Assembly (NCBI GenBank): GCA_017407905.1
Contig: JAFQVS010000063.1
Location: 1 to 33,035 of the forward strand
Origin: Bacteroidaceae bacterium
GTDB taxonomy: Bacteria; Bacteroidota; Bacteroidia; Bacteroidales; Bacteroidaceae
Direction: 5' to 3'
DNA length: 33,035 nucleotides
Of the stretch, positions 13,755-33,035 are shown one piece after another; the first letter of the stretch is position 1, and the number at the start of each line of letters is the position of its first letter. Made by a program: the position numbers and the translations under genes. Below the pieces are notes generated by a model. The model was not told the DNA's origin and ran no database searches. It saw nothing but the letters and a program-made list of their open reading frames with translations.

Positions 13755-14105
13755 ATGGATTTAATTAAAGTTGCTAAAGAAGCATTTGCTACTGACGTTA
13801 AGCGCGAGATGGAGTTTCACCCCGGTGATACAGTAACAGTAGCTTACAAAATTATTGAGGGTACTAAGGAGCGTATCCAGATGTATCGCGGTGTTGTTAT
13901 CAAGATTGCCGGCCACGGTAACGAGAAGCGTTTCACCGTTCGTAAAATGTCGGGTACAGTAGGTGTTGAGCGTATCTTCCCCTTGAACTCGCCCTCTATC
14001 GACAGCATCACCGTTAACAAACGCGGTCGTGTACGTCGTGCTAAGCTCTATTATCTTCGTGCCCTCACAGGTAAGAAGGCTCGTATCAAAGAGATTAAGG
14101 GCTAA
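13755..14105 (+). CDS. rplS: 50S ribosomal protein L19
   Basis: A 116-aa ribosomal protein of the large subunit, located near the 30S-50S interface. Recognisable family blocks are [13 protein letters not shown], a [13 protein letters not shown] stretch, [21 protein letters not shown] and [20 protein letters not shown]. Length is normal. It is monocistronic here, not next to trmD or rimM, with its own promoter and a strong terminator directly after it. Codon use is typical of a highly expressed gene. Confidence 0.97.
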
Positions 14106-14183: not shown

Positions 14184-14201
14184 CATAATTAGCTGCTCAG
14201 T
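14184..14201 (+). repeat. 18-nt direct repeat, left copy
   Basis: CATAATTAGCTGCTCAGT. It matches 17 of 18 positions with CATAATTAGCAGCTCAGT at 14652-14669. The pair brackets the 450-bp hairpin-rich non-coding segment and could be an insertion footprint. Confidence 0.6.
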
Positions 14202-14651
14202 AACAAAAAAAGTGTGGCTGAAATAATTCTATTTATCACCCTCTCGGAATGCTCGTGCGGCTATTCTCTCTTTCACTTTATACTTTAGGACTTACTTTTT
14301 TTCTGAAAAAAAGTAAGCAAAAAAAACTGCACCTAAAGAAATTGTCGCTGGGCCTCCTTTGCTCGTGAGGCAACGATGCGCTCACTCGGTCGGAGGCCCA
14401 GCTTGTCATTTCGGTTTACGATTGTTTTAAGGGTGCTGCGGACCGCCCTCACTTAGTCGCTTGCAAACAAGCGTCTAAGTAGCGGTTAAACATACCTCGC
14501 ACTTTTTCCTTAAAACAATCGAACCTACATTGAATTTCTTTTTTATGGTGCAATAAATTAAAAGTTACCTTTTGTGCGTATTATATGCAGCTGCTCTTGA
14601 AAGCGAGAAAATCGCTTATTGATTCCTCTCTACAATAAATTTCTATTGAGC
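14202..14651. other. Hairpin-rich non-coding segment containing repeat copy A
   Basis: This is the bulk of the 559-bp gene-free gap between rplS and the DUF2007 gene. No credible reading frame is seen. It holds a 12-bp stem with a 3-nt loop (14291-14317), an 11-bp stem GCTGGGCCTCC (14347-14357 with 14392-14402) containing an inner GTGAG/CTCAC pair, and a 14-bp stem CGATTGTTTTAAGG (14419-14432 with 14508-14521). The last encloses a CTTAG-T-CGCTTG hairpin (14452-14479). A small AAGCGA/TCGCTT hairpin lies at 14601-14617. The sequence from 14453 to 14600 recurs inverted at the window's end. Confidence 0.7.
14453..14600 (-). repeat. 148-bp interspersed repeat, copy A
   Basis: This sequence, read on the minus strand, aligns without gaps to 32888-33035 on the plus strand with 6 mismatches in 148 positions. 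Identity fades just beyond 14600. On the other side it may continue past 14453, because the window cuts copy B there. It is non-coding in both places. Confidence 0.85.
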
Positions 14652-14669
14652 CATAATTAGCAGCTCAGT
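14652..14669 (+). repeat. 18-nt direct repeat, right copy
   Basis: CATAATTAGCAGCTCAGT, the partner of 14184-14201. It overlaps the last codons and TGA stop of the DUF2007 gene. Confidence 0.6.
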
Positions 14670-14916
14670 TGAATGGGTTGCACTCCAGACGGCTATCTTT
14701 TATGAGCAATGCGGCCGCCTCTTCGTCGCAGGCGTTGACAAGCACCCACACCTCGCCGCCCAATGTGGCGTAGGGCGACGTTACGGCCGAGAGGGTGTCG
14801 TTTTCTATCATACAATTTATGTGGTTCGACTGTAAAAGCCCTTGAACAATCTGCGCCTCCCACAGATTGCCGTTAAACACTCGTACCAGATGATTCTGCG
14901 GAATATTACCTTTCAT
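14665..14916 (-). CDS. DUF2007-like small protein (putative signal-transducing protein family)
   Basis: An 83-aa soluble protein with no signal peptide. The pattern LVRVFNGNLWEAQIVQGLLQSNHINCMIEND followed by GEVWVLVNACDEEAAALLI matches the DUF2007 fold, a small ferredoxin-like domain related to PII-type proteins. Its function is unknown. It stands alone, downstream of the divergent frr region. Unusually for this phylum, the start codon is preceded by an AGGAGG sequence at 14927-14922, five nt before the ATG. Its stop codon lies inside the 18-nt direct repeat that borders the non-coding element. Confidence 0.82.
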   Translation of the reverse strand: MKGNIPQNHLVRVFNGNLWEAQIVQGLLQSNHINCMIENDTLSAVTSPYATLGGEVWVLVNACDEEAAALLIKDSRLECNPFN

Positions 14917-32294: not shown

Positions 32295-32302
32295 TAAGTT
32301 TG
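32295..32302 (+). promoter_or_regulatory. -7 box of the 125-aa gene
   Basis: TAAGTTTG matches TAnnTTTG and is followed by the usual CAG context. The start codon is 22 nt downstream, giving a very short leader. No TTTG lies at the normal -33 distance. Confidence 0.45.
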
Positions 32303-32323
32303 CAGACAAAGAGAAAATGTTTT

Positions 32324-32701
32324 ATGGGACGTAAGAAATTCTCGCAGCGCGAGGTTGATATAATACGCAAGCTGCTGCGCAGCAAAATAAGCGGTAACCG
32401 CGGACAGCAGAAGATGGTGCGACACACGCTGCGCACTGTGTTCGAGTTTAATATATCCGATTTTAATGTTCCCGGAAAGGCTTTCTCGCCTGCCGACCTC
32501 GACGAGTGTGTACGCCGCGGCCGCATTCAAATTCTTGATGAGCAGACTATTGAGACAATGAAACTGCGCCACGCTGAGAAAAAGCAGCACGACGAGGCGC
32601 TGCGGCAGGCCGAGGCTGTTGCCAACGGCGAGGCGCTCGATTGGGAGCAGGTGCTTAAAGAGTGGAACGAGTATTATAACGAGCATCCCGAGGAGAGGTA
32701 A
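32324..32701 (+). CDS. Conserved-looking 125-aa protein of unknown function
   Basis: I do not recognise this protein. It starts at ATG 32324 (MGRKKFSQREVDIIRKLL); an in-frame TTG at 32300 overlaps the -7 box and is rejected. It has no signal peptide or membrane segment. The first 45 residues are basic with a helix rich in Arg/Lys (REVDIIRKLLRSKISGNRGQQKMVRHTLR), which could bind nucleic acid. Residues 45-75 are more neutral (NISDFNVPGKAFSPADLDE) and the C-terminal half is acidic and helical, ending LDWEQVLKEWNEYYNEHPEER. Being divergent from the RND operon it might be a regulator, but there is no recognisable HTH family. A terminator follows. Confidence 0.65.
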   Translation: MGRKKFSQREVDIIRKLLRSKISGNRGQQKMVRHTLRTVFEFNISDFNVPGKAFSPADLDECVRRGRIQILDEQTIETMKLRHAEKKQHDEALRQAEAVANGEALDWEQVLKEWNEYYNEHPEER

Positions 32702-32887: not shown

Positions 32888-33035
32888 TCAAGAACAGCAG
32901 CATATAATACGTACATAAGGTAACTTTTAATTTATTGCACCATAAAAAAGAAATTCAATGTAGGTACGATTGTTTTAAGGAAAAAGTGCGAGGTATGTTT
33001 AACCGCTACTTAGACGCTTGTTTACAAGCGACTAA
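32888..33035 (+). repeat. 148-bp interspersed repeat, copy B (truncated by window)
   Basis: Aligns gaplessly to the reverse complement of 14453-14600 with 6 mismatches. It begins near TCAAGAACAGC and runs to the last base of the window, stopping inside the CTTAG-A-CGCTTG hairpin; the next base should be G if the match continues. Most mismatches are within the outer 35 bp, so the core is more conserved than the edge. Confidence 0.85.

Follow-up and report, generated by a model that had tools for sequence, protein, structure and literature searches.

The window analysed here is a complete contig of 33,035 bp (C25; JAFQVS010000063.1) from the draft genome of a Bacteroidaceae bacterium (GCA_017407905.1). 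It carries two inverted copies of a repeat, both outside genes as a sequence-only reading of the window had stated: copy A lies between rplS (13755-14105, plus strand) and a small convergent frame (14665-14916, minus strand), and copy B lies beyond the frame at 32300-32701. Recomputation of the alignment between 14453-14600 and the reverse complement of 32888-33035 reproduced the 142 of 148 identities given there, without gaps, and the claimed distribution of the mismatches, with two in the core and four near the outer edge (14464, 14522, 14572, 14576, 14589 and 14594). A chance match is excluded, because the same sequence recurs at dozens of further places in the genome. The 148-bp match is thus as stated, but as a unit it is too short, and both copies extend to the boundaries given in Table 1. 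Copy B had been described as incomplete; since the window is the whole contig, it is an assembly break that cuts this copy. The open reading frame list contains no frame of at least 80 aa inside the 459-bp element.

Table 1. Coordinates of the element copies in the window and of the parts of copy A
Feature	Positions	Strand	Basis
Complete element, copy A, 459 bp	14194..14652	+	boundaries common to other copies; 459-bp end pair; 13 of 15 relatives lack it at the orthologous gap
Left target duplication, ATAATTAGC	14185..14193		identical to 14653-14661
Right target duplication, ATAATTAGC	14653..14661		identical to 14185-14193
5' terminal inverted repeat, drifted form of GGCTCAGTAGCAAAAAGGTGTGG	14194..14217	+	family end pattern
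3' terminal inverted repeat, drifted form of CAGTAAATTTCTACTGAGCC	14633..14652	+	3' ends of other copies
Hairpin A, CTTACTTTTTTTC..GAAAAAAAGTAAG	14291..14317	+	paired in minimum-energy fold; other phyla have comparable hairpins upstream of the apex
Outer stem P0, 5' strand	14328..14343	+	pairs with 14533-14552 in fold; co-changed in sister species (read by eye)
Hairpin B	14347..14402	+	perfect 11-bp arms; paired in fold
Core: stem P1, P1b and inner hairpin	14419..14521	+	model R1 match; compensatory changes
Outer stem P0, 3' strand	14533..14552	+	paired with 5' strand in fold
Second copy (B), final 199 bp, truncated by contig end	32837..33035	-	alignment with other copies

The gap downstream of rplS measures 563 bp in this genome, compared to 65-101 bp in 13 of 15 same-genus relatives, which have the same convergent gene and neither end nor core sequence in the gap. 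In one of the two others (G011), the second gene downstream of rplS was not found; the last (G004) has an end-like sequence 107 bp after rplS and its contig ends 248 bp after that gene, so that it may also carry an insertion there.

Copy number and placement in the draft genome

The draft genome (102 contigs, 2.30 Mb, 84% complete) holds at least 91 distinct element sites on 70 contigs, found by sequence and end-pattern searches with half-copies counted apart. The copy searches used a 450-bp and a 199-bp stretch, for which 40 of 124 and 40 of 98 candidates were scored, and the site counts are therefore lower bounds. Most sites (79 of 91) lie close to where a contig begins (400 bp at most) or ends (320 bp at most); the other 12 are internal to contigs, several of them truncated. 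Since one copy broken by the assembly can be counted as two halves, the sites represent at least about 51 physical copies (the 12 internal ones and half of the 79). In practical terms, 79 of the 204 contig ends of the draft are in or near an element. These counts, together with terminal inverted repeats, target duplications and the 13 relatives that lack the element, bear out the family of dispersed elements that the sequence-only reading had suspected, whereas the true ends, the link to ISL3 and the conserved folded interior had escaped it.

Of 84 flanking sides, 65 have a gene whose 3' end points towards the element (p 5e-7). Comparable placement biases are reported for repeats of P. fluorescens (PMC2718517) and for REPs (PMC3733652). 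This bias is compatible with insertion that avoids promoters or with selection against other sites. Another short repeat, AGAAGCTGTTTAAATTT, recurs in direct and inverted form near element copies in the same genome (about 200-400 bp after position 1035 in L120; also in L026, L047, L092, L099 and L111) and could mark the end of a further MITE family. The upstream part of L092, near one element copy, contains what we take to be a cobalamin-riboswitch-like sequence before a receptor-like gene.

Element ends and ISL3-family relatives

The family ends read GGCTCAGTAGCAAAAAGGTGTGG at the 5' side and, read inwards from the other side, GGCTCAGTAGAAATTTACTGTGG at the 3' side; both ends of the window copy have drifted from this form. 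The pattern GGYTCAGTAGMAAWWNNNTGTGG has 45 matches in the genome and none for the reversed control, and it was found in 12 of 41 genomes, all of the same genus. Exact 8-bp target duplications flank 6 of 61 listed pairs of end-like sequences, compared to 2 of 3660 mismatched pairs; in many of the 61, one partner is false and lies within the element, ~175 bp away from the true end. Sixteen of the 61 were judged by eye to be true end pairs. Among these, six have exact duplications (C78 of this genome, L071, L078, L142, L176 and L196, with eight A's in L078), the C20 copy of this genome matches at 7 of 8 positions, and about seven have no duplication. The duplications of the window copy (9 bp, ATAATTAGC) and of L134 fit once one end is moved by a single base.

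ISL3-family insertion sequences of sister species have the same two ends as the element family, over 23 bp. In G014 (L132), a 330-aa frame matching DDE_Tnp_ISL3 (PF01610; E 1.3e-51) runs straight into the same right end, and in G001 the same right end (L125 and L126) and left end (L127, followed by METKMLEQLAQLVLPKEILERFLIVKIET) lie on separate contigs; no contig was seen to hold a complete ISL3 element with both of its ends. Because both family ends equal ISL3 ends in sister species, the element is classified as an ISL3-type MITE, which differs from the ISL3 elements themselves in having no transposase gene. ISL3 transposase matches occur in 14 of 41 genomes, 12 of them above the curated cut-off. 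The draft genome itself (84% complete) has no PF01610 match, and thus no autonomous partner was found there. G014 also has a sibling ISL3 element (L159) that ends in GGCTCACCTGCAAAAGTTGGGGG, and elements with this type of end (L066 and L083) also contain the folded module described below, so that the same module lies behind two kinds of ISL3 ends within the genus. The ISL3 transposase frame is broken at the same place, CTTTTTTAA(AA), in several elements (about 135-165 in L132; also L146 and L159), which suggests two frames joined by programmed frameshifting.

Among described systems, the ISL3 transposon Tn7546 likewise makes 8-bp target duplications but has a different end sequence, GGGTCTTCGGA, as given in its description (PMC9782665). 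The P. gingivalis MITEs BrickBuilt, MITE293 and MITE700 are similarly non-coding and intergenic with IS-like end repeats, but their ends differ from those of the present family (e.g. CCGAAAGGTCTC); BrickBuilt has a 23-nt tandem repeat inside, and the passages of PMC4596501 that describe these MITEs make no mention of a conserved folded interior. Our search of one open-access literature library found no description of the MITE family, the consensus sequences of the P. fluorescens repeats lying outside this comparison.

The folded interior and its apex

The whole element forms one nested fold that comprises hairpin A, outer stem P0, hairpin B and the core, at -147.2 kcal/mol (z -10.4) for the plus strand and -150 (z -7.7) for the minus strand. 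Covariation analysis of 15 core sequences from 9 genomes (alignment A3) revealed standard pairs in 86.2% of cells, compared to 71.8% in shuffles, and 18 of 34 pairs changed on both sides, a number reached by none of 500 shuffles. Structures slid along the alignment gave at most 47.9% standard pairing, a comparison that favours the unslid version, which was drawn from the window sequence. Helix 1 has 9 of 14 pairs changed on both sides and a single one-sided cell, whereas pairing is less regular in the two inner helices (70% and 76%). The tip is variable: in the present genome a short inner part of 40 nt and a long one of about 95 nt are both widespread (long at L025, L030, L085 and L104), and at L065, L137 and L140 there is a triloop only. 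Model R1 has matches in 40 of the 44 genus genomes and in 3 of 198 from a sample of the order, this genome included in both; it has no match in G001, G009, G015 and G018, G001 nevertheless having the ISL3 ends.

An apex pattern composed from the triloop forms, CTGCGGAACTCGCTNCGCTCAAACAGNCCTCGC, has exact matches at 84 sites, spread over 78 stretches of public genomes, where far less than one match in 257 billion bases is estimated by chance. By record names, these stretches span seven phyla (Bacteroidota, beta-/gammaproteobacteria, Nitrospirales, Nitrospinota, Sulfurimonas, Patescibacteria and Lachnospiraceae), two of which rest on a single metagenome-bin stretch each. Isolates carrying the apex include Barnesiella An22, Iodobacter, Spongiibacter marinus and Neomelitea salexigens, and one stretch (F22) is a complete genome. 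The distribution is patchy: with up to two mismatches, the apex is found in 2 of 395 genomes of the Bacteroidaceae bacterium's own phylum, the present genome not being one of them because its tips carry the longer inner hairpin. No frame of at least 150 aa crosses the first apex site in 72 of the 78 stretches.

The apex was held constant by the search pattern, and the stems around it were unconstrained. Of 81 sites with both flanks, 42 were left after near-identical flanks were dropped; the stem beside the apex has a mean score of 11.26 at these sites, compared to 4.06 (sd 0.20, 200 permutations) with swapped partners, and scores at least 8 at 28 of them. The outer stem, in the 40 of 75 sites left by the same filter, scores 10.3 against 7.46 (sd 0.20), with 20 of 40 at 9 or more. 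The stem under the apex therefore varies by lineage yet remains paired. A perfect upstream hairpin of at least 8 bp is present in 25 of 40 sites, with a mean of 8.2 compared to 4.8 after letter shuffling.

Within 500 bp of the 84 sites there is no pair of ISL3-type ends, with six loose single matches (1-2 substitutions), and the module elsewhere thus appears bare. Nor was a common neighbour gene found: 83 of the 122 flanking frames were scanned and gave 161 Pfam families, none in more than two members. Inverted apex pairs 0.5-1.9 kb apart occur in four stretches (L283, L287, L294 and L301), and eight frames scanned between or beside such pairs include no transposase, matching DUF6119, a phosphoribosyltransferase or no Pfam family. 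In Nitrospira-type genomes (L241, L245, L246, L250 and L254), small GC-rich palindromes that end in GACG and resemble CGTC-tagged REPs precede the module. Searches of other sequence sets gave no apex match in E. coli genomes, no exact match in viral contigs, nothing convincing in phages (partial matches, one of 33 nt at 82%) and, in plasmids, no match for one query and partial matches of 18-28 nt only for another. The text of the motif, searched in one open-access library, returned a single unrelated paper.

Nature and proposed spread of the module

Taken as a whole, the repeat is best explained as the 3' part of a 459-bp non-autonomous ISL3-type MITE that carries a module of nested hairpins, an explanation that we hold with good confidence. 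An old local duplication of two sites would account for two inverted copies on one contig, and the sequence-only reading had named it as the outcome should there be only two copies, shared by relatives at the same loci. At least 91 sites exist and the orthologous gap is element-free in 13 of 15 relatives, which rules out local duplication alone and leaves it with practically no probability. The module could also be a REP-like palindrome moved by a Y1 transposase (RAYT or TIRYT), and like REPs and TIRtrons (GTAG, CGTC) it is short, palindromic, intergenic, dispersed in many copies and several phyla, and mostly downstream of genes; TIR families are reported around Y1 genes as well (PMC3733652). 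REPs, at 20-40 bp, are of a different size. Moreover, the genome has no Y1_Tnp match, and none of 26 loci around Y1 genes, from 12 of the 19 module-bearing genomes, holds the motif with up to five substitutions; on these two grounds, the REP/RAYT or TIRtron identity was rejected, and movement by such an enzyme is very improbable. It is improbable, too, that mutation by itself, through template-switch correction of palindromes, keeps the stems of a functionless module complementary. Such correction would suit stems whose letters are free and nearly perfectly paired, but it leaves unexplained both the letter-for-letter apex in seven phyla and the upstream hairpins in 25 of 40 divergent sites. 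The P. fluorescens repeats R26 (352 bp), R178 (101 bp) and R200 (320 bp) are non-coding, of similar size and biased to tail-to-tail gene pairs (PMC2718517); they were compared by description, and one of them could be an earlier sighting of the module.

The more serious alternative concerns DNA or RNA. Each copy may give rise to a structured non-coding RNA with a role in termination, processing or regulation, in which case selection would keep the fold and the MITE would spread the RNA. The compensatory changes in the genus alignment and the cross-phylum stems would agree with this, and read-through transcription is likely, as neighbouring genes end towards the element on 65 of 84 sides. Against it, the two strands fold to a similar degree, a single one-sided cell is seen in helix 1 of the genus alignment, and the P1 pairs across phyla comprise 587 Watson-Crick and only 11 G-T pairs (598 in total). 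A known structured RNA family was rejected for lack of an Rfam 15 match at the module, where the search at gathering score gave none and an E-value search gave only rows below the family cut-offs. The outer stems, however, contain 466 Watson-Crick and 32 G-T pairs (498), a G-T share close to that of the seven tRNAs that served as baseline (78 and 5 of 83), so that the argument for DNA only is weak; the stem scoring gave G-T pairs no credit. A further clue comes from the two free positions of the apex pattern, one of which is T at 84 of 84 sites and the other T at 42, A at 24, G at 15 and C at 3. The latter base corresponds, on the opposite strand, to the N of GCGNAGC, the GNA mini-hairpin, which is described as needing its two G-C pairs and accepting any N (PMC4686876). 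The genus triloop forms have three different N, and the window copy is without the mini-hairpin; a per-position table of the apex is uninformative, because the loci were fetched by exact motif. The position of the free base is support for folded DNA, not proof of it, and overall we regard an RNA function as rather unlikely.

For the MITE itself, we propose that an ISL3-type transposase acting in trans would recognise both ends, move the element and duplicate 8-9 bp of the target. As no such enzyme was found in the draft genome, we infer, rather than observe, that it moved the copies there. For the module, our proposal is more tentative: it may act as folded DNA, the palindrome being extruded or folding when single-stranded, for instance on the lagging strand; a protein might read its apex, and the module might spread by that route and have been captured between ISL3 ends in the genus. 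We know of no enzyme that reads the module. Exact matches establish the spread of the apex across phyla. Equally tentatively, the apex and its variable palindrome may constitute a class of mobile folded-DNA element that spans phyla and is so far undescribed. It would be read as a hairpin, cruciform or single-stranded, tipped by a GNA mini-hairpin, with no coding capacity or fixed neighbour gene, and in this genus would have been captured behind at least two kinds of ISL3 ends, by which it was amplified to dozens of copies per genome.

What was unexpected in this ISL3-ended MITE is the folded module inside it, conserved between phyla. The interior of a MITE is usually expendable, yet in this family it is what has been conserved. 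If the module can move by itself, folded-DNA repeats of one unnamed class are shared among bacteria, and their reader could then be sought with a defined 31-base bait.
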